Below, piece after piece: positions 8,369 through 27,056 of a DNA stretch of 33,730 nt (within the stretch, counting starts at the first letter, position 1; each line of letters starts with the position of its first letter). The DNA comes from Acidobacteria bacterium Ga0077522 (GTDB taxonomy: Bacteria > Acidobacteriota > Vicinamibacteria > Vicinamibacterales > Vicinamibacteraceae): contig LNDN01000062.1 of NCBI GenBank assembly GCA_001464065.1, positions 1 to 33,730 of the forward strand, read 5' to 3'. Below the pieces are notes generated by a model. The model was not told the DNA's origin. It ran no database searches and saw only the letters and a list, made by a program, of their open reading frames with translations. The translations under genes were made by a program, and so were the position numbers.

Positions 8369-8411
8369 AAGTACAGGATGAAGTGGCATGGCGTGTGCTC
8401 TGGGAGACGCC

Positions 8412-8777
8412 ATGCCTACACAGCGAAGGGACTTGCTGGAGCGATCGGCGGCGTTTGCTACGCGTTTGTTGAGGTGTTTCGTCGCAGAACGGAAGCGAGG
8501 CCTGATCCCGCAGACGTTGCTGCAGCAGGCCCTGCGTGCAGGAACTGCGATCGGCGCTCACAACGCAGAGGCACAATCTGCCACCACGAGGCGTCACCTG
8601 CTGGCGCTGCGGTCCGGTGCCCTGCGCGAAGCGCGTGAGGCGCAGTACTGGCTGAATCTGATCGAGCAGTCCGGTCTGTGCGCCGACCCCGCCGAGATCG
8701 GCTGGCTCCTCGCCGAATCCGGCGAACTCGTCGCCATCCTCTCGACCTCCGTCAAACGCCTCCGCACCTCACCGTAG
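8412..8777 (+). CDS. Four-helix-bundle protein (23S rRNA intervening-sequence protein family)
   Basis: A 121-residue, all-helical protein of the S23/IVP family. Recognisable are FATRLLRCFVAER in helix 1, QTLLQQALRAGTAIGAHNAEAQ, the most conserved stretch (R-A/S-G-T-S-I-G-A-N-x-x-E-A), LRSGALREAREAQYWLNLI and a C-terminal ELVAILSTSVKRL. The family forms barrel-like pentamers; its members sit in rRNA intervening sequences, beside diversity-generating retroelements (as Avd) or, as here, alone. No reverse transcriptase or rRNA is near. GGGAG at 8402-8406 is 5 bases before ATG 8412, better than the earlier ATG at 8388. Role unknown; nucleic-acid binding is a reasonable guess from family knowledge. 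Confidence 0.85.
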   Translation: MPTQRRDLLERSAAFATRLLRCFVAERKRGLIPQTLLQQALRAGTAIGAHNAEAQSATTRRHLLALRSGALREAREAQYWLNLIEQSGLCADPAEIGWLLAESGELVAILSTSVKRLRTSP

Positions 8778-8878: not shown

Positions 8879-10417
8879 CTACCCATGCCCGATCCCCGTC
8901 TCTCGCGCCAACACATCGAGCGTTCGCCCATAGAGGTCCGCGACCTCCTCGGGGCTGCTGGCGATGACGGTGAGTCCCAGCTTGCCGTACTCCGACAGCG
9001 CGCCGATCAGGTGGAACAGCACGCCTGACTCCGTGCGGTGCGAGTAGTGCAGGCCGTTGTCGGTGACGATGTCGATGAGGTCTTCGGGGAGCACGCCGCG
9101 ATACGTGGCGGCGCGGAGGTTGTCGGTCGCCATGTAGAACTTCGGGCGCCCGCTCAGCGAGACGAACTCGCCCGTGTCCGGATCCAGCGTGCCGCCCGTG
9201 AGGAACTGCAGCGCCAGGAACGGATGGGTGGTGCCGAGCACGCGCAGGTTGATCTCGAGCGCCGTCAGCTTCCAGGGATCCTCCGGAGCGTCCTTGTAGG
9301 CGAGGAAGTCGACGCCGAAGCGGCTGACGACGTCCTGCTTCGCGAGCACCTCGCCGACGAGGATGCTGCGCGTCTGGATCGCCATGCGGTAGTCCTCGTG
9401 CGCCGGGAAGCTGCACCCCTGGTACACCTGGCCCGACGGCCCGCCGAGGATCTGATCGTGCGTCGACGTCGGCAGCACCTCGCCCGCCGGACTGGTGCGC
9501 AACTGCGCCGACGGCGACACCTTGATCGCGGCGTCGATGAACTCCTCGACGATGCCCCCCATGCGCGTGAACTTCTGGAAGTAGTTCTGGTGCGTCTCCC
9601 ACGGCACGGCGAACTCGAGCGACCGCAGCGCCTTGCGCACGGCCAGGCGATCGTCGGGCTGATCGGGGAAGCGGAAGATCGCGTTGCCTTCGCCCGAGAA
9701 GCTGTCGTTCAGTTTTACGACAGCCTTGCGCAGGCCGGGCCGCCGGTGTGCGAGTTCGACCAGCGCGTCCTCGACGTCGGCCTCGCCGGTGAGGTCCTCG
9801 AAGCCTTCCGGCAGCTCGATGCCGGCCTGGCGGAACACCTTGCGGCTGCCCGACTTGGTGCCCAGATGGTTCAGCGTCGGGTCCAGGCCGTTGAGCGGGA
9901 TGCCGAGCAGCACGGCCAGCTTCCGCTCGAGCGGCGTCGAGTTGAAGATCGTGAGATACGCGCGTGACGGGTCCGGGATGGCCGCGCGGATACGTTCGAT
10001 CAGGCGCGGGCGCTCGAGGATCTTCTGCGTCAGCGGTCGCGGCGACGTGTCGTACGTGCACAGCATCGTCAGCCGGGCACGGGCGTGGCTCGCGGGCACG
10101 CCGGCCAGCAGGTGCAGGTAGTAATCGAGGATCAGCGGATGCACCGGCTGCGACGTCACGTAGACGACGTGGGCGCGCGGGTTGCGCAGGCGGATCAGCA
10201 GGAACAGCAGGCGTTCCTCGTAGAACGTCGCGCCATCGAGCTTGCGCAGTTCATCCTGGTCGAGGGTGAGTGACGGGACGACCACCGACGTGCCCGGCTG
10301 GTCGGCCGTCCGCATCAGGACGTCCCAGACCTGGTTGAGGCGCGGCTTCAGTTCCTCGAAGCGGCGCAACTCTTCTTCGGTGGTCAGGGTGGCGGCAAAA
10401 GGCGGCTGCGGAATCAC
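8879..10417 (-). CDS. ATP-grasp ligase related to peptide ligase PGM1
   Basis: A 512-residue cytoplasmic protein of the ATP-grasp superfamily, in the group annotated as related to PGM1, the peptide ligase of pheganomycin synthesis that joins a carboxylate to a peptide amine through an acyl phosphate. The N-terminal pre-ATP-grasp half contains YVTSQPVHPLILDYY (85-99) and CTYDTSPRPLTQKILERP (120-137). The ATP-grasp half shows VVKLNDSFSGEGNAIF (233-248) as the nucleotide-holding loop, VEEFID (290-295) and ALEINLRVLGTTHPF (386-400) with the Mg-binding Glu-x-Asn. Its ATG overlaps the stop of the amidotransferase-like gene by four bases, so the two products are made together and probably act together. 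Substrates cannot be read from sequence. Confidence 0.85.
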   Translation of the reverse strand: MIPQPPFAATLTTEEELRRFEELKPRLNQVWDVLMRTADQPGTSVVVPSLTLDQDELRKLDGATFYEERLLFLLIRLRNPRAHVVYVTSQPVHPLILDYYLHLLAGVPASHARARLTMLCTYDTSPRPLTQKILERPRLIERIRAAIPDPSRAYLTIFNSTPLERKLAVLLGIPLNGLDPTLNHLGTKSGSRKVFRQAGIELPEGFEDLTGEADVEDALVELAHRRPGLRKAVVKLNDSFSGEGNAIFRFPDQPDDRLAVRKALRSLEFAVPWETHQNYFQKFTRMGGIVEEFIDAAIKVSPSAQLRTSPAGEVLPTSTHDQILGGPSGQVYQGCSFPAHEDYRMAIQTRSILVGEVLAKQDVVSRFGVDFLAYKDAPEDPWKLTALEINLRVLGTTHPFLALQFLTGGTLDPDTGEFVSLSGRPKFYMATDNLRAATYRGVLPEDLIDIVTDNGLHYSHRTESGVLFHLIGALSEYGKLGLTVIASSPEEVADLYGRTLDVLARETGIGHG

Positions 10418-11580
10418 AGCGCGGCTCCGAGTTCGTCGAGGGACAACACTTCACCGGTCGCGAGCATCGCGAGCGGCGACGTCCGTTCGTGCAGGGGCCA
10501 CGCGCGCCCGAGCGACTCGGCAGTCTGTCGCAGGCGGCGCAGCAGGTGGTAGCGCAGCGGCCCGTGCAGCGAGAAGCTGGAGGTGAGGGCCAGTTGCTGC
10601 TCGCCGGCGCGATCGTCCAGCGCTTCCATCAGCGTGCGCCGACGTTCCTCGTACCAGCGGTCGTCGATCTTCCCCGCGGCGTGGCGGCGACGCAGCAGGG
10701 CGAGCTGCCGCGGCCGATTGACGATCTCGGGGTGGTGGTTGACGCCGAGGATGCGTGGCATGCCGTCGGCGGCACTGCGCTCCACTTCCAGCATCGTCAG
10801 TGCCGGGCCGACAGGGCCACCGACACCAAGCGTCTCGTAGCCGATCGCCTGCATCGTGTCGGGGAGTGGCCCCTCGGGCAGCAGGTCGTACAGGCGGCTG
10901 TCGAGGACGGCGATGCGCTGCGAGGCGCCGGCCTGCTGACTGAGGAAGCGGAACCATGGATGGGTGCGGGCGGCCGGCGTCAGGGCGTTCTCCATGATGC
11001 CGGCGCTCTTGCCGCCCTTCTCGGGGCCGCGCAGGTGCGCATCCGCCACGCCGAGCCAGCGGCACATGATGCCGAAGCTGTGACAGATGGCGAGCAGGGT
11101 GCCCTCGGGGTGCGCGCGCAGGTCGTCGAACAGGCCGAAGACCTCGGGCTCCCACGACGGATCCTCTGCGATGCCCTGGCTGCCCGGATCGAGACCGTCG
11201 TTGCGCCGGGGATCGAGGTGGCCCGGGCCGCCGGTGCCGATGCAGAGCAGGCCCGAGGCGGCGTCCACCGCGGGCCGTCCGCCGTGGCGGCGCACGTCGT
11301 ACGACGACACGCGGACGCGCAGGCCAGCGTCAGCCATCGCCGCCCGCAGGTCGCAGACCACCTGGCGCAGCGACCGCACGACGGCGGCGTGACCGAGATT
11401 CGGCCAGCCATGGTTCATGTCCAGCACGGCGACATCCACGGTGCCGGCCTCTGGTGCCGGCGCGGCATCGCGGGTGCTCACGCGCTGATACACGAAGCCG
11501 CTCGTCGGGTGCCGCGTCGGACAGTCGGCGACACACGCGTCGTGCCCGTACGTGTACTGGTGGCGGCAATCGAAGGGCAA
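10414..11580 (-). CDS. Class I glutamine-amidotransferase-like protein
   Basis: A 388-residue protein with a GATase1 core: DVAVLDMNHG (49-58), GTGGPGHLD (115-123), the nucleophile elbow LLAICHSFGIM with Cys166, and GVNHHPE with His283 and Glu285, the complete Cys-His-Glu triad of enzymes that release ammonia from glutamine. An N-terminal extension carries Cys5, His7, Cys16, Cys20 and His24, possibly a metal site, and a C-terminal helical region of about 90 residues (from 295) is outside the usual domain. The start is TTG: a TGA lies in frame just upstream with no ATG or GTG between, and a TACGAT box ends 9 bases before the TTG. It overlaps the ATP-grasp ligase gene (ATGA). Ammonia donation to the ligase, or hydrolysis of a gamma-glutamyl bond, are both possible. 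Confidence 0.82.
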   Translation of the reverse strand: MPFDCRHQYTYGHDACVADCPTRHPTSGFVYQRVSTRDAAPAPEAGTVDVAVLDMNHGWPNLGHAAVVRSLRQVVCDLRAAMADAGLRVRVSSYDVRRHGGRPAVDAASGLLCIGTGGPGHLDPRRNDGLDPGSQGIAEDPSWEPEVFGLFDDLRAHPEGTLLAICHSFGIMCRWLGVADAHLRGPEKGGKSAGIMENALTPAARTHPWFRFLSQQAGASQRIAVLDSRLYDLLPEGPLPDTMQAIGYETLGVGGPVGPALTMLEVERSAADGMPRILGVNHHPEIVNRPRQLALLRRRHAAGKIDDRWYEERRRTLMEALDDRAGEQQLALTSSFSLHGPLRYHLLRRLRQTAESLGRAWPLHERTSPLAMLATGEVLSLDELGAAL

Positions 11581-11589
11581 GATGCCGCG

Positions 11590-11595
11590 ATCGTA
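11590..11595 (-). promoter_or_regulatory. -10-like box (TACGAT) before the amidotransferase-like gene
   Basis: TACGAT on the minus strand matches four of six -10 bases, is preceded by TG, and ends 9 bases before TTG 11580. It overlaps the 3' end of the TVP38 gene, so it would be an internal operon promoter giving a leader of about 3 bases. Confidence 0.35.
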
Positions 11596-12339
11596 TCAGG
11601 CCAGCGGCGGGGGCGTCTCGCCGGCGTCCGGCGTCGGTTCGGCGAGCGCCGAATCCAGCGCGCGGCGGGCGAACCAGCCGAGAATCCCGAGCACCGCCAT
11701 CGACAGCCCCAGCGTGACCGCGGCCGATCCGAAGGCGTCACGCTGACTGAAGTCCAGCGTGGACAGGTGCGACCCGGCCTTCACGGCCACGGTGGTCCGG
11801 GGGGCCAGGCCGAGCAGGGTCCCGACCAGATAGGCGCCGATGGGCACGCGCGCGGCCGCCATCGCGCCGTTGCTCAACGCGAATGGCGAGTTGGGCGGCA
11901 CCCGGACCAGCGTCACGACGAGCAGGGTCTTGAGCCACGAGCGCCCGACCAGGGCGTTGCGCACGGCCAGCCACCGGGGACGTTCGGCCAGCAGCGCGGC
12001 CGCGTGCGTCACCGACAGGCGCTGGGCCCAGGCGTAGTTGATGCCGGAGGCCACGACGAACCCGGCCAGGGCAGCCGGGATGCCGATGCGGTCGCCGAAC
12101 GCCCAGCCGCCGAGGATGGCCGGGGCATAGGTGGGCAGCAGCGCGAAGCCGCCGAGGAGTCCGAATCCCGTGATGTAGAGGGCCACGCCCCGCGGGCCCA
12201 TGGCCTGCAGCCAGGGGCCGATGCTGGACAGGTAGCCAATCAGCAGGGCCGCGCCGATGGGCGGCAGCACCAGCGAGAGGAGGGCCAGCGGCGCCAGCCG
12301 CCGCGCCGCCGTCCGTCCGGCCTCGCTCGGGCCGGTCAC
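11596..12339 (-). CDS. TVP38/TMEM64 (VTT-domain) family membrane protein
   Basis: A 247-residue polytopic inner-membrane protein with about six hydrophobic segments (around residues 15-36, 52-80, 85-105, 135-150, 165-185 and 205-228). The family motif is visible in LVRVPPNSPFALSNGA, followed by PIGAYLVGTLLGLAPRT, where the re-entrant VTT/DedA fold carries its conserved arginine and proline. Members belong to the DedA superfamily, some of which move undecaprenyl phosphate or phospholipids between leaflets. The C-terminus is short, acidic and proline-rich. It lies 16 bases after the DedA gene and 15 before the amidotransferase-like gene, all on the minus strand, so an operon is likely. Confidence 0.88.
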   Translation of the reverse strand: MTGPSEAGRTAARRLAPLALLSLVLPPIGAALLIGYLSSIGPWLQAMGPRGVALYITGFGLLGGFALLPTYAPAILGGWAFGDRIGIPAALAGFVVASGINYAWAQRLSVTHAAALLAERPRWLAVRNALVGRSWLKTLLVVTLVRVPPNSPFALSNGAMAAARVPIGAYLVGTLLGLAPRTTVAVKAGSHLSTLDFSQRDAFGSAAVTLGLSMAVLGILGWFARRALDSALAEPTPDAGETPPPLA

Positions 12340-12355
12340 CGGTGCGCGCTCCGCG

Positions 12356-13015
12356 TCACGCCCGGCCTGTCGAGTGCTTCCATCGCTTGTAGACCTCCCA
12401 CAGCAACGGGAGCACCGACACCACGATCACCACCAGGATGACGCGATGCGCCTGCTCGGCCAGCGGGCTCAGTCCGAGCAGGTAGCCGACCCACAGGAGG
12501 CTGGTCACCCACAGCACGCCCCCGGCGACGTTGTAGGCCACGAAGCTCCGGTAGGGCATCTTCGCCACGCCGGCGATGAACGGCACGAACGTGCGCATCA
12601 CCGGGACGAAGCGGGCGACGATCAGCGAGGACCCACCCCGGGTCGCATAGAGCTCCTGCGCCTCGTACAGGTACTTCTTCTTGAAGAACCGCGTGTCTGG
12701 CCTGTTGTAGATGGCCCGGCCGGCGCGGTTGCCGAGCCCGTACCCGACCTGGTCGCCGATGACGGCGGCCAGCACCAGCAGCAGGTTGGTCAGCCAGATG
12801 TTCAGGGGCGGCAACCCGGGGAACGCCCCGGCGCAGACGACACCCGCGGTCACCAGCAGGGAGTCACCCGGCAGGAAGAAGCCGGCCAGCAGGCCGGTCT
12901 CGGCAAAGACGATGGCGATGAGGATGCTGAGCCCGCCCCAGGCGATCAGGGCGCGCACGCCCTCGTCGCTGTGAAGGGTGCGCAGCCAGGTGAGGAGATC
13001 GACGATGAATTCCAT
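12356..13015 (-). CDS. DedA-family membrane protein
   Basis: A 219-residue DedA protein of normal length. It shows the family signatures: ETGLLAGFFLPGDSLL (residues 39-54), GDQVGYGLGNRAGR (87-100), then FFKKKYLYEAQELYATRGG and the second conserved block ARFVPVMRTFVPFIAGVAKM, with the arginines and prolines of the re-entrant loops, and two or three membrane helices after it. DedA proteins recycle undecaprenyl phosphate to the inner leaflet or act as phospholipid transporters, depending on the member. It heads the four-gene minus-strand operon. The intergenic region to the divergent plus-strand gene is only 75 bases. Confidence 0.94.
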   Translation of the reverse strand: MEFIVDLLTWLRTLHSDEGVRALIAWGGLSILIAIVFAETGLLAGFFLPGDSLLVTAGVVCAGAFPGLPPLNIWLTNLLLVLAAVIGDQVGYGLGNRAGRAIYNRPDTRFFKKKYLYEAQELYATRGGSSLIVARFVPVMRTFVPFIAGVAKMPYRSFVAYNVAGGVLWVTSLLWVGYLLGLSPLAEQAHRVILVVIVVSVLPLLWEVYKRWKHSTGRA

Positions 13016-22128: not shown

Positions 22129-22707
22129 ATGACACGCCATCGCCTCACCTCCGCCGCCGGCTTCACGCTGATCGAAGTCCTCATCACGGTCACCATCGTC
22201 GGCGTGCTGCTGTCGATGAGCCTGCTGGTGCTGCCAGGGGCCATTGCGGCGGCCAAGGCCGACAGCGGCAGTTCACAGCTGTCCGCCCTGCTGCGCACGG
22301 CCCGCGAGCAGGCTGTGACCGAGCGGCGCAACGTCGAAGTCCGCTTCCAGGCCCCTGATGCCATCGAGGCCTGGCGCGAGGACATCGACGCCAATGGCGC
22401 CCAGATCGGCCAGACGCTGGTGCAGCAGGTCTTCATCGGCGAGCGCATGGAACTGCGCCGCTTCATCGAGTTGCCCGATACGCCCGACGGCTTCTCGGCT
22501 GGCGCCACGGCGGTCGAGTTCACCGGCGCCGCCCCCTGGAGCTTCACGAGCGAGGGCACCCTGGTCGATGCCAATGGCGATGTGGTCAACGGCACCGTCT
22601 TCCTGGGGCGGCCGTTCGAGCCGCTGTCTGCCCGCGCGGTGACCCTCTTCGGCCCGACCGCCCTGCTCCGCGAGTGGCAGTGGAACGGCCGCGCCTGGAC
22701 GGAGTGA
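22129..22707 (+). CDS. Type IV minor pilin / pseudopilin, FimT-GspH type
   Basis: A 192-residue prepilin. The leader MTRHRLTSAAG ends in the glycine cut by prepilin peptidase, and the mature protein begins FTLIEVLITVTIVGVLLSMS with Glu5, the hydrophobic assembly helix. The rest is the FimT/GspH beta domain: SQLSALLRTAREQAVTERRNV is typical, followed by strands and a disordered-looking loop. It acts at the inner membrane and in the pilus tip, helping to start assembly. ATG 22129 is used because the upstream in-frame GTG at 22084 overlaps the sigma-54 promoter. First gene of a four-gene operon, 4 bases before the PilV-like gene. Confidence 0.92.
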   Translation: MTRHRLTSAAGFTLIEVLITVTIVGVLLSMSLLVLPGAIAAAKADSGSSQLSALLRTAREQAVTERRNVEVRFQAPDAIEAWREDIDANGAQIGQTLVQQVFIGERMELRRFIELPDTPDGFSAGATAVEFTGAAPWSFTSEGTLVDANGDVVNGTVFLGRPFEPLSARAVTLFGPTALLREWQWNGRAWTE

Positions 22708-22711
22708 CGAC

Positions 22712-23326
22712 ATGACACGCACCAGCCACACCCCTGCCCCTGCCAGTCGTGGCGGCCTCGGGGGCGACGCGGGATTCAGCCTCATGGAAGTGCTGGTCTC
22801 GATGCTGCTCATGACGACCTCGCTGATGGCCGTGGCGCAGATCTTCATGCTCGGCATGACCCACACCGCGGCCTCGTCGCCCAACCTGACCGCCCGCGAG
22901 AAGGCTCGCGAGGCGATCGAGAGCGTGCACACGGCTCGTGACACCCGCGTGCTGACCTGGGCCCAGATTCGCAACCAGACCGCGCGCCTCTGCCCCGGCG
23001 TCGCCCAGCCGGCCGGCTGGAACAACGCGGCCGGTGTGTTCATCGATGGCGTCCAGCCGGGCGGCCTGCACGGCGCCGGTCCGGACGGCCTGATCAACAC
23101 GGCCAACGACGACGACGAGCCGCTCGAGACCATCCGGCATCTCGGCAACGACGGCGTCGCCGGCAGCGCCGACGACTGGGTCCAGCAGCTGGAGCAGTTC
23201 ACCAGGGAGGTCTGGATCTGCGACCAGAGCAATTCCCTGCGTGAAGTGCGCGTCATCGTCAGGTACCGCGTCGGCGGCATCGACCGGACCTACCGGCTGA
23301 CGACCTTCGTGTCCAACTACTCGTAG
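22712..23326 (+). CDS. pilV: Type IV minor pilin, PilV type
   Basis: A 204-residue prepilin with a 21-residue leader (glycine-rich, ending GGDAG) and a mature start FSLMEVLVSMLLMTTSLMA with Glu5. The following helix FMLGMTHTAASSPNLTAREKAREAIESV and the later REVRVIVRYRVGG strand fit the PilV/GspI-like minor pilins. An Asp-rich loop (INTANDDDEPLE) could bind calcium. It would join FimT, PilW and PilX in the priming complex. The four-gene order FimT-PilV-PilW-PilX supports the name more than the sequence does. Confidence 0.88.
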   Translation: MTRTSHTPAPASRGGLGGDAGFSLMEVLVSMLLMTTSLMAVAQIFMLGMTHTAASSPNLTAREKAREAIESVHTARDTRVLTWAQIRNQTARLCPGVAQPAGWNNAAGVFIDGVQPGGLHGAGPDGLINTANDDDEPLETIRHLGNDGVAGSADDWVQQLEQFTREVWICDQSNSLREVRVIVRYRVGGIDRTYRLTTFVSNYS

Positions 23327-23341
23327 GCGACAGGACTCGAC

Positions 23342-24411
23342 ATGGACTTCGATCGACACGATCGGCGCGGCTTCTCGCTGGTCGAACTCCTCGTCAGCAT
23401 GGCGGTGACGTCGCTGGTGATGGGCGGGGTGTTCTCGGTGATGACGAGCGCGACGCGGGCGCAGAACAGCGTCAGGCACGTCACCAACATGAACAACAAC
23501 CTGCGCGTGGCGATGGATCTGCTGGTGCGGGACATGATTCAGGCCGGGCAGGGCCTGCCGTCGGGGATGGTCGTCTCGGTGCCGTCGGGCGCCGGGGCGC
23601 TCCCGATTTCGATCCGAACCTGTCGACCATCGGTGCCGTCACGGTGGGGCCGGGGCTCGGGCCGGCCATCAACGGGCAGGCCACCGACATGATCACGGTG
23701 CTCGCGGCCGACAACGCCTTCGACGAAGTCACCCTGACGGCCATCAGCGACATCTCGATGACCGTGCATCCGTCCACCGACATCGACGACGTGCCGGACA
23801 TCCTCGGGGACAACATCCGGGTCGGCGACCTGATCCTGTTCGAGAAGGGGTCGGCCAGCACGCTGCGGTTCGTCACCGCCGTCAACGGCCAGATCGTCCA
23901 GTTCCAGGAAGGCGACCCGCTCAACCTCAATCAGGCGGGCGCTCCTGACGGCACCATGGCGCAGTACCTGGCCGAAGCCCCGGCGGAGGTGCTCGCTGCC
24001 GGCATCCTGCCGAGCCGGGCAACGCGCATGCGGATGATCAGCTACTACCTCGAGACGCCAGGCGATCCGCAGCGGGACCTGCGGCTGATTCGTCGCATCA
24101 ACGACAACCCGCCGACCACCGTCGCGTTCTTCATCGAGAGCTTCCTCATCACCTACGACATCGTCGATGGCGTGACCAACCCGGTGAACGTCCAGATGAA
24201 CGCCGCGGATCTCGACGGTACAGGCGATTGCGACCCGGATCCGGCCACCCCGCCCGTGCTGACGTGCTCGCCGAACCAGGTGCGCAAGGTGAACGTGCGG
24301 CTGACGGGACGGTCGGCCGAGCCCAATCACGAGACGCGCCTGTTCTATCGCAACACGCTCAACACCCAGGTCAGCCTGCGCAGTCTGGCTCTGGTCAATC
24401 GGTACATGTGA
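23342..24411 (+). pseudogene. pilW: Type IV minor pilin, PilW type, split by a frameshift
   Basis: The first frame (from ATG 23342) gives leader MDFDRHDRRG, mature FSLVELLVSMAVTSLVMGGV with Glu5, and NNNLRVAMDLLVRDMIQAGQG, a characteristic PilW opening. Near 23594-23597 the meaningful sequence moves to another frame: VVSVPSGAG is in the first, and APDFDPNLSTIGAVTVGPGL onwards in the second, which then runs open to 24411 as a normal PilW body (about 250 residues). One missing G in the GGGG run at 23594-23597 would restore a single reading frame of about 356 residues. The rest shows no decay, so a sequencing error or a recent mutation are equally likely. Read literally, the first frame stops at 23692. 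Confidence 0.82.
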
Positions 24412-24419
24412 GACGAGCC

Positions 24420-27056
24420 ATGGACAACACTCAGATGAGCGCACGCGGACTGCGGCGCGAGGACGGCATGACGCTCCTGGCCACCGTGATGGTCATGATG
24501 CTCATGTCGGCGCTGCTCGTCGGCTTCGTGTCGCTGGTGGTGGCGGACCAGCAGGCCAATGGGCTGAACCGCGACCAGACGCAGGCCTATGCGGCGGCGC
24601 ACGCCGGACTGGAGAAGCTGACGGCCGACCTGGGCGACCTGTTCGTCGGCGGCAACTTCAGCCCGACGCGCGCGCAGCTCGACGTCATCGAGACGACCCC
24701 TCCGGTGCTCGACGGCTTCGTCTACACCGCGCCTGGGGGCGGGTCCGGCTATCGCATCACCGCGGGAGCCTCCGCCGCGCGGCCGGTGCCGTCCGGGCCG
24801 TACCAGGGCCTGGTCGGATTGATCACGCCCTACGAAGTGACCGTGACGGCGCGATCGACCACCGGCGGTGAAGTGCGCATGCGTCGGGAGATGCAGACGG
24901 TCGGCATCCCGGTGTTCCAGTTCGGCATCTTCTCGGAGAACGACCTGTCGTTCTTCGCCGGTCCGAACTTCGCGTTCGGCGGTCGTGTGCACACCAACCG
25001 CAACCTGTTCCTCAAGCAGGATGGCACCGCCACGCTGACCCTCGCGGACCGGGTCACGACGGTGGGCGAGGTCATCCGCACCCACCTGCAGAACGGCGTC
25101 ACCGGCACGCACCAGGGCAACGTCCGCATGACGCTGAACCCGGGCACCGGTGCTTTCAGGAATCTCGGTCCCCTCAACTGCGGCGGCGCGGCCTGCGAGG
25201 GCTCGCTGGTCGGCAACGTCGGGTCGGCGCAGAACGAGCCGGCGTGGACCAACCTGTCGGTCGGGGTCTACAACCGCACCATCACCAATGGCCGCACCGG
25301 CGCGCGCCGCCTCGACCTGCCGCTCGTGAGCGACGGTGCCCAGCCCATCGACATCATCCGGCGCCCCGTCGCCGCGGCGCCGGACACGCCGGCGGTGGCC
25401 GACCAGCGCTTCTTCCACATGGCCAGCCTGCGCATCCTGCTGTCGGACGCGCGCGACGACATCATGAATCTGCCGTCCGTGGACACCGCCGTCGAGCCCA
25501 TCCAGCTCAACTCCCTGGCCTCGCTGACCGGGGCCGGCTATGCCTACGTCAACACCCAGGCCAACATCCTGGCGACAGGGTTGACGCCCCTGGCACTGGC
25601 GGGCCCGGCGAGTGCCTTCTACGTGCAGGCCAACAACACCAGCCTCATCGGCGGCTACCTCAAGATCGAACGGCAGGACAACAGTGGTGTGTTCCACGAC
25701 GTGACGGCGGAGATCCTCAACCTCGGCTTCTCCGGCCGCAACCTGTCGACTGGCGCGTTGCTGACCAAGGACAACGGCAACTGCCGCGCGCTGGGCGAGG
25801 CCAGCCCGAACGCGGTCATCCGTCTGCAGCGTCTGAAGGACACGCCGACGTCGGCAACGGGACTCAACGGGGCCAACGGGCTGCGCTGCGGCAACGGCAG
25901 CACCCTGGCCACCGACTACTGGCCCAACGTGCTGTACGACCCGCGCGAAGGCGCGCCGCGAGACGACGAGGCCTTCTTCCGCGAGCTCGACGTCAACAAC
26001 CTGCGCCGCTGGCTCACGGGGGCCATTGGCGCGACGGGTGACGACGACACGATGAACGAGACCGGCTTCGTGGTCTATTTCTCGGACCGGCGGACCAATC
26101 GCGACCTCGGCCTGGATGGCGTGGCCACGGTGGCCAGTCCCTTCGGCGACGACCGCGAAACGGCCGAGTTCGGCTGGGAGGACTTCCTCAACTCGGGATC
26201 GGCCCGGAGCGACGTCGGCGGCACCTTCGACCTCGGCGAGGACATGAACGGCAATGGGCTCCAGGAGATCTACGGCCAGACGCCGCGCTGGGTGACCAAC
26301 ACCGCACCGTTCGGCGACACCGCCCGTCCCTGGACGACGGTGACCTGGCAGCAGGCGCGGGCCAATCGTCCGGTCTTCTTCCGTCGGGCCCTCAAGCTGG
26401 TCAACGGCGCCCGCACCCAACTGCCGGCCAATGGCAGCCAGGGGCTCATGGTGGCGAGCGAGAACCCGGTCTACATCCAGGGCAACTACAACGCCTGCAC
26501 GCCGGGCGACGCCGCAGGCGCGTGCAACGAACCCGGTGGCGCCTTCGGGCCGACCGGGAACGGACACGTCTCGGCCGCCGTCATCGCCGATGCGGTCACG
26601 CTGCTGAGCAGCGCATGGAACGACATCGGGTCGTTCATCAACCCGCACTCACTCAGCCGCACGACGGGCAATGTCGTCAATGCCCAGCGGAACTCCGCCA
26701 CGACCTGGTACCGCGTGGCGGTCATCGCCGGCAAGGGCATTGCGTTCACGCGACCCACCAACAACGCGGCCGACCACACCGACTACGGCACCGACGGCGG
26801 CGCGCACAACTTCCTGCGCTTCATCGAAGACTGGTCGGGCACGGCGCTGAACTACCGCGGCTCGATCATCAGCTTCTTCACGAGCCGACAGGCCATCGGC
26901 AGCTACAAGTGCTGCGACATCGTCTACGGCGCGCCATCGCGCGGGTACAACTTCGACACCGAGTTCCTGTCGCCGCCGCTGCTGCCGCCCCGCACGCCGA
27001 TGTTCCGCGACATCAACACCCTGACGTTCCGCCAGCTGCTGCGACCGACGCAGTAA
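24420..27056 (+). CDS. Giant PilX-like pilus protein, 878 residues
   Basis: The N-terminus (leader MDNTQMSARGLRREDG, then MTLLATVMVMMLMSALLVGF) is a prepilin-like signal of the PilX/GspK class; position 5 of the mature protein is alanine rather than glutamate, as expected for a tip subunit. The next helix (QTQAYAAAHAGLEKLTADL) is typical of PilX. Ordinary PilX is about 200 residues; here some 780 more residues follow, beta-rich and Asn/Gly-rich, with FSENDLSFFAGPNFAFGGRV, several Cys pairs (around GGAACEG, NACTPG, GACNEP, YKCCD) and a C-terminal FLSPPLLPPRTPMFRDINT. There is no PilY1 in the operon, so this protein may do the tip-adhesin work itself. ATG 24420 is 6 bases after the PilW stop. 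Confidence 0.85.
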   Translation: MDNTQMSARGLRREDGMTLLATVMVMMLMSALLVGFVSLVVADQQANGLNRDQTQAYAAAHAGLEKLTADLGDLFVGGNFSPTRAQLDVIETTPPVLDGFVYTAPGGGSGYRITAGASAARPVPSGPYQGLVGLITPYEVTVTARSTTGGEVRMRREMQTVGIPVFQFGIFSENDLSFFAGPNFAFGGRVHTNRNLFLKQDGTATLTLADRVTTVGEVIRTHLQNGVTGTHQGNVRMTLNPGTGAFRNLGPLNCGGAACEGSLVGNVGSAQNEPAWTNLSVGVYNRTITNGRTGARRLDLPLVSDGAQPIDIIRRPVAAAPDTPAVADQRFFHMASLRILLSDARDDIMNLPSVDTAVEPIQLNSLASLTGAGYAYVNTQANILATGLTPLALAGPASAFYVQANNTSLIGGYLKIERQDNSGVFHDVTAEILNLGFSGRNLSTGALLTKDNGNCRALGEASPNAVIRLQRLKDTPTSATGLNGANGLRCGNGSTLATDYWPNVLYDPREGAPRDDEAFFRELDVNNLRRWLTGAIGATGDDDTMNETGFVVYFSDRRTNRDLGLDGVATVASPFGDDRETAEFGWEDFLNSGSARSDVGGTFDLGEDMNGNGLQEIYGQTPRWVTNTAPFGDTARPWTTVTWQQARANRPVFFRRALKLVNGARTQLPANGSQGLMVASENPVYIQGNYNACTPGDAAGACNEPGGAFGPTGNGHVSAAVIADAVTLLSSAWNDIGSFINPHSLSRTTGNVVNAQRNSATTWYRVAVIAGKGIAFTRPTNNAADHTDYGTDGGAHNFLRFIEDWSGTALNYRGSIISFFTSRQAIGSYKCCDIVYGAPSRGYNFDTEFLSPPLLPPRTPMFRDINTLTFRQLLRPTQ

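Follow-up and report, generated by a model that had tools for sequence, protein, structure and literature searches.

The stretch of DNA analysed here (the window) comprises 33,730 nucleotides (nt) of contig LNDN01000062.1 from the 5.4 Mb genome of Acidobacteria bacterium Ga0077522 (genome G000 of our survey), and the subject of this analysis is a group of four adjacent minus-strand genes within it (Table 1). An initial annotation described these genes as an operon joining two membrane proteins of the DedA superfamily, DedA and TVP38, to a protein resembling class I glutamine amidotransferases (GATase) and a PGM1-related ATP-grasp ligase, consecutive members being separated by 16 and 15 nt and, in the last case, overlapping by 4 nt. 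Examination of the open reading frames (ORFs) of the window confirmed all four genes with exactly this spacing (in the order DedA, TVP38, GATase, ligase), and a codon-usage gene caller returned the same four ORFs. The three further genus members with a complete locus keep this order, so the four genes are considered real. In each of five genus members (genomes or records) the GATase and ligase genes overlap by 4 nt; the gap between the TVP38 and GATase genes measures 15, 108, 179 and 61 nt within the genus.

Table 1. Genes of the four-gene locus, with positions as numbered in the window.
Predicted product	Position	Strand	Length	Start codon	Basis of assignment
DedA family membrane protein	12356-13015	minus	219 aa		PF09335
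TVP38/TMEM64-type VTT membrane protein	11596-12339	minus	247 aa	GTG	PF09335
Class I GATase-fold protein, gamma-glutamyl peptidase-like	10414-11580	minus	388 aa	TTG	Motifs and structure model
BesA/PGM1-like ATP-grasp amide ligase	8879-10417	minus	512 aa	GTG	Pfam, NCBIfam, PDB

The ligase contains two Pfam domains scoring above cut-off, ATP-grasp_IQCH (PF24923, 67.2 bits) and PGM1_C (PF18105, 53.7 bits), with a PreAtp-grasp score (PF18604, 16.6 bits) under the cut-off of 27.5 bits. This domain content and the conserved ATP and Mg residues place the protein among the BesA/PGM1-type ATP-grasp ligases. Residues K188, K235, G242, G244, N245, E388, N390 and R392 are invariant or nearly so across 20 homologues, and form a set of basic residues, a GEGN loop and an E-x-N-x-R motif, the last of which is common to BesA. 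BesA (L-propargylglycine--L-glutamate ligase, PDB accession no. 8yi6) was the sole significant sequence relative of solved structure (E 9.4e-46), and the predicted structure of the ligase (mean pLDDT 88.7) matches it with Z 43.3 over 448 residues (2.3 A, 30% identity). The next members of the family, 3wvq (which we take to be PGM1) and 8ynd, gave Z 31.6 and Z 30.2, with ordinary ATP-grasp enzymes at Z 22 or below. The NCBIfam BesA model scored 153.1 bits (E 9.9e-45) against an equivalog cut-off of 750 bits, and the protein is thus not assigned as a propargylglycine-glutamate ligase. A single-sequence scan of contigs with the ligase returned one close relative only (89%). Distant ligases are present in plasmid records of Gemmatirosa, Nonomuraea, Robbsia and Streptantibioticus/Streptomyces, and in the four such regions inspected no GATase, DedA or TVP38 gene was found within 5-6 kb. 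One ligase of the survey (G354:C130:50955-52476) is split over two frames beside an intact GATase gene, reflecting a frameshift or a sequencing error. Convergent with the ligase gene of the window lies a gene for a four-helix-bundle protein (8388-8777; TIGR02436, 23S rRNA intervening-sequence type), which two other members of the genus retain at the same place.

No Pfam or NCBIfam model matched the GATase-like protein above cut-off, and single-sequence and profile searches of the PDB with it gave nothing credible. Its class I signature is intact, consisting of a GTGGPGHLDP loop, Cys166 in AICHSFG, and His283 and Glu285 in NHHPEI. The three catalytic residues and the GGPG loop are invariant across 10 aligned homologues, and this triad with its GGPG-type oxyanion loop is that expected of class I GATase-fold, gamma-glutamyl hydrolase-like enzymes. 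The structure model (mean pLDDT 83.8) likewise matches enzymes of this fold, the best being gamma-glutamyl peptidase 1 (GGP1, Z 16.3), TM1158 and DnfC, followed by PuuD, SpuA and human gamma-glutamyl hydrolase; matches to the small subunit of carbamoyl phosphate synthetase (CPS, Z 14.4) and to anthranilate synthase (Z 13.8) were also obtained. As modelled, the fold by itself fits a hydrolase and an amidotransferase alike. The protein also possesses an additional C-terminal helical part and an N-terminal extension with invariant Cys5, Cys16 and Cys20, which are a possible metal site. This extension is seen in GATases that mostly accompany a BesA-like ligase, and is apparently missing from those associated with a YbdK/GCS2-type ligase (GCS2), whose matches begin at residue 16-38. 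Three further GATase matches (G191:C16, G387:C26 and G042:C2) each contain one in-frame TGA, due to decay, an assembly error or a match end overrunning the stop codon.

The distribution of the two genes was surveyed in 396 genomes of the phylum. The ligase occurs in 26 of these and the GATase in 27, with both present in 17 (odds ratio 68; Fisher p 7e-17, a value inflated by kinship), two of which (G281 and G359) depend on distant GATase matches of approximately 28% identity. Counted by family, the ligase is found in 16, the GATase in 14 and both in nine (p 2e-5, taking as the total 92 families, the highest family label seen). GATase and ligase genes are adjacent on the same strand, 5-150 nt apart, in six genomes outside the genus (G054, G066, G107, G221, G354 and G390), none of which has a VTT gene within 20 kb of them, and in other genomes they lie apart or one is absent. 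Many ligases stand alone, and the same GATase family is also found beside GCS2 in ligase-free clusters. The partnership of GATase and ligase is supported by neighbourhood and co-occurrence, and the coupling of the two proposed in the initial annotation is borne out by the constant overlap within the genus, the six adjacencies outside it and the odds ratio. Its family assignments are likewise supported.

Recurrent neighbours of the GATase and ligase loci are a RimK-like ATP-grasp protein, the carboxylate-amine ligase GCS2, a circularly permuted (CP) ATP-grasp protein and a small esterase. In profile searches the RimK-like protein (approximately 310 aa) matches structures of the biotin carboxylase, D-Ala ligase and RimK types, the nearest solved relative of the CP-ATP-grasp protein is a putative glutathionylspermidine synthase, and the esterase is an alpha/beta-hydrolase. 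Strong matches to the RimK-like protein were found in 108 of the 396 genomes; of the 27 that encode the GATase, 25 have one. In G054, which belongs to another genus, the genes for ATP-grasp, CP-ATP-grasp, GATase and ligase follow one another in this order, with the esterase 1.6 kb further on. The pair lies beside or near GCS2 in G066, G221 and G107, and beside the CP-ATP-grasp gene in G354 and G390. In the window's own genome the ATP-grasp, CP-ATP-grasp and esterase genes are found together on another contig (G000:C191:6422-9789); its CP-ATP-grasp protein is 62% identical to the counterpart in G054, and this cluster is likely to be the partner set of the pair. In the single-contig relatives G125 and G247, approximately 35 kb separate the same three-gene cluster from the pair.

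Ten genomes have GCS2 next to the GATase gene or in its vicinity. A search for it found none in G054, G354, G390 or the members of the window's genus, all of which carry the BesA-like ligase; its absence where that ligase is present, in these few lineages, suggests that the ligase may replace GCS2 there. Furthermore, G251 of the sister genus encodes an M29 peptidase and an additional ATP-grasp protein alongside GCS2, ATP-grasp, CP-ATP-grasp and esterase, and possesses neither GATase nor ligase. Since the set occurs there without the pair, the pair appears to be an add-on module to a wider set of amide ligases. A conserved protein of approximately 400 aa and unassigned family, bearing an ATP-grasp-like KPLFSFAGGG motif, occupies the position of the ligase mostly in ligase-free clusters of the GCS2 type (L095:6849-8048 and relatives). 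It lies next to the GATase, and when compared with the ligase as a possible divergent form it showed no profile similarity (probability 0.5%) and had no credible solved relative. A role of the set in anti-phage defence was rejected, as PADLOC gave no match for any of nine of its proteins.

Both membrane proteins belong to the VTT family, scoring 70.2 bits (DedA) and 43.6 bits (TVP38) with PF09335 against a cut-off of 33.9 bits. The best NCBIfam-type model for DedA is the general DedA model PRK10847 (172 bits), and its scores with the equivalog models of the undecaprenyl-phosphate transporter UptA fall below cut-off (47.6 against 250 bits and 36.9 against 300 bits); despite these scores its function may be similar to that of UptA. 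The canonical acidic and arginine motifs are present (E39 and D51 in ETGLLAGFFLPGDSLL; RFVPVMRTFVPFIAG), and by its sequence the protein looks like an ordinary member of the family. VTT genes were searched for in 22 genomes (18 from outside the genus; the sister-genus genomes G250 and G251 were left out), and adjoin the pair only in G000, G125, G247 and G248, all of the window's genus. In the 18 others, some with short contigs, no contig that carries the GATase or ligase showed a VTT gene less than 20 kb from either, the nearest lying at approximately 20 kb (G269), 32 kb (G098) and 63 kb (G107). The functional link of DedA and TVP38 to the pair, which the initial annotation had drawn from gene order, is rejected on these neighbourhoods and on the variable TVP38-GATase gap (15-179 nt). 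That annotation had itself named the wide occurrence of the pair without such neighbours as grounds for abandoning the link, and within the phylum the pair does occur without them. DedA and TVP38 are probably ordinary VTT proteins, and only local, genus-restricted neighbours upstream of the pair.

These observations point to the GATase-ligase pair, acting within a multi-ligase small-molecule pathway, as the functional unit in place of the four-gene set, an interpretation which we hold at about even chances of being correct. For the pair itself, a gamma-glutamyl-type ligase and a hydrolase in a glutathione-like small-peptide pathway is the most likely assignment. The ligase would phosphorylate a carboxylate, which homology to BesA suggests is the gamma-carboxylate of glutamate, and join it to an amine, giving a gamma-glutamyl-type amide. 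The GATase, through Cys166 with His283 and Glu285, would take up the gamma-glutamyl group as a thioester for hydrolysis or transfer, in the manner of gamma-glutamyl peptidase and PuuD. Glutamate would thus serve as a removable handle, while the remaining ligases of the set may cooperate with the pair in making a small glutathione-like peptide or amide. We infer this chemistry from family and fold, and the same applies to glutamate as the substrate, to hydrolysis in preference to ammonia transfer and to cooperation with the distant ligases.

The position of BesA, far ahead of the next family member in matching the ligase model (Z 43.3 against 31.6), favours a gamma-glutamyl-type pathway, as do the gamma-glutamyl enzymes among the best GATase matches, the co-occurrence of the two genes and the amide-ligase neighbourhoods; several observations weigh against it. 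Glutamate can be given as a presumed substrate of the ligase at most, because identity to BesA is 30% and the score is well short of the equivalog cut-off. Ammonia-feeding glutaminases (CPS small subunit and anthranilate synthase) are equally matched by the GATase model, and the GGPGHLDP loop recalls them. Within the window's genus the other ligases do not adjoin the pair. Eight ligase genomes are without a strong homologue of the RimK-like protein, and these together with the many solitary ligases indicate that the ligase has roles beyond the set. In its most specific form, namely an undescribed Acidobacteriota metabolite, a glutathione-like small peptide or amide built by a chain of three to four unrelated amide ligases, in which glutamate is a temporary handle added by the BesA-like ligase and removed by the GATase, and the ligase replaces GCS2 in some lineages, the proposal is a tentative one and rather doubtful.

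The chief rival, which we regard as unlikely, holds that the GATase is a true amidotransferase passing ammonia from glutamine to the ligase, which would amidate the carboxylate of a small molecule, the two forming a two-subunit synthetase with the logic of CPS or GatD-MurT built from different families. The complete Cys-His-Glu triad with its GGPG loop, the unchanging 4-nt overlap, the co-occurrence of the two genes and the structural matches to the CPS small subunit and to anthranilate synthase all agree with such an enzyme. However, the nearest relatives of the ligase, BesA and PGM1, couple amino acids or peptides and do not use ammonia (in part PMC8939145). Moreover, the GATase family also occurs beside GCS2 in the absence of the ligase, and ligases occur in the absence of the GATase.

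A peptide metabolite resembling pheganomycin, in which a non-proteinogenic amino acid is joined to a ribosomal peptide and trimmed by the GATase, would account for the PGM1_C domain and for the matches to the ATP-grasp peptide ligases 3wvq and 8ynd (Z 31.6 and 30.2). We consider it improbable: BesA is much nearer, no precursor-peptide gene was noticed (no dedicated search was made), and the recurrent GCS2 and RimK-like partners fit small amides of the gamma-glutamyl or amino-acid type better. The least likely reading, and to our minds a very improbable one, is the single envelope pathway of the initial annotation, in which a lipid-linked precursor, amidated or peptidyl, is made by the pair and DedA and TVP38 flip this precursor or its carrier. 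All four genus members whose locus is complete keep the same strand and gene order, and in other bacteria DedA proteins serve as undecaprenyl-phosphate flippases (PMC12893004). Against this stand the confinement of VTT neighbours to the genus, the varying TVP38-GATase gap and DedA scores far under the UptA cut-offs. Moreover, the conserved neighbourhoods showed no recurrent lipid or cell wall gene, the partners of the pair there being other amide ligases, and the claim of a flipped lipid-linked product is not supported.

The finding thus shifts from an envelope-lipid hypothesis to a small-molecule pathway. With its RimK-like member present in approximately one quarter of the Acidobacteriota surveyed, the amide-ligase set probably yields a peptide-like compound, for which the literature searched gave no description, and the GATase-ligase pair offers an entry point for finding it. 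Elsewhere in the window (22129-27056), pseudopilin-like genes with an N-methylation motif and a GspH domain are followed by a gene for a large protein with no Pfam match.

Among known systems, GatD-MurT likewise pairs a protein of the class I GATase fold with an ATP-dependent ligase encoded alongside it, and was the analogy offered in the initial annotation. MurT is a Mur ligase, whereas the ligase here is of the BesA/PGM1 ATP-grasp type; as no Mur ligase or GATase_3 (GatD-type) Pfam match was obtained for the pair, membership of that system is rejected. With GGP1 and the gamma-glutamyl hydrolases PuuD and SpuA, the GATase shares the class I fold and the Cys-His-Glu triad, but identity is approximately 11-15% and the Cys-bearing N-terminal stretch and C-terminal helical part are additional to it. 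The PGM1_C domain and fold of the ligase are similar to those of PGM1, which functions in pheganomycin synthesis, and of related peptide ligases, but its identity to 3wvq and 8ynd is just 16-17% or so. BesA is similar in fold over nearly the whole length, in its ATP-grasp motifs and in its C-terminal domain, at 30% identity across 448 aligned residues; it differs in that the ligase scores far below the equivalog cut-off, no bes-like cluster was noticed and the partner here is a GATase-fold protein. Iyer and co-workers reportedly predicted in 2009 amidoligase neighbourhoods combining YbdK/GCS2, ATP-grasp and CP-ATP-grasp proteins with hydrolases, and in these, as here, several amide ligases and hydrolases form one conserved set. 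By comparison with those neighbourhoods, no description of this particular set, with its BesA-like ligase and GGP-like GATase, turned up in the literature searched, which does not prove that no earlier description exists. Each kind of enzyme is already known.

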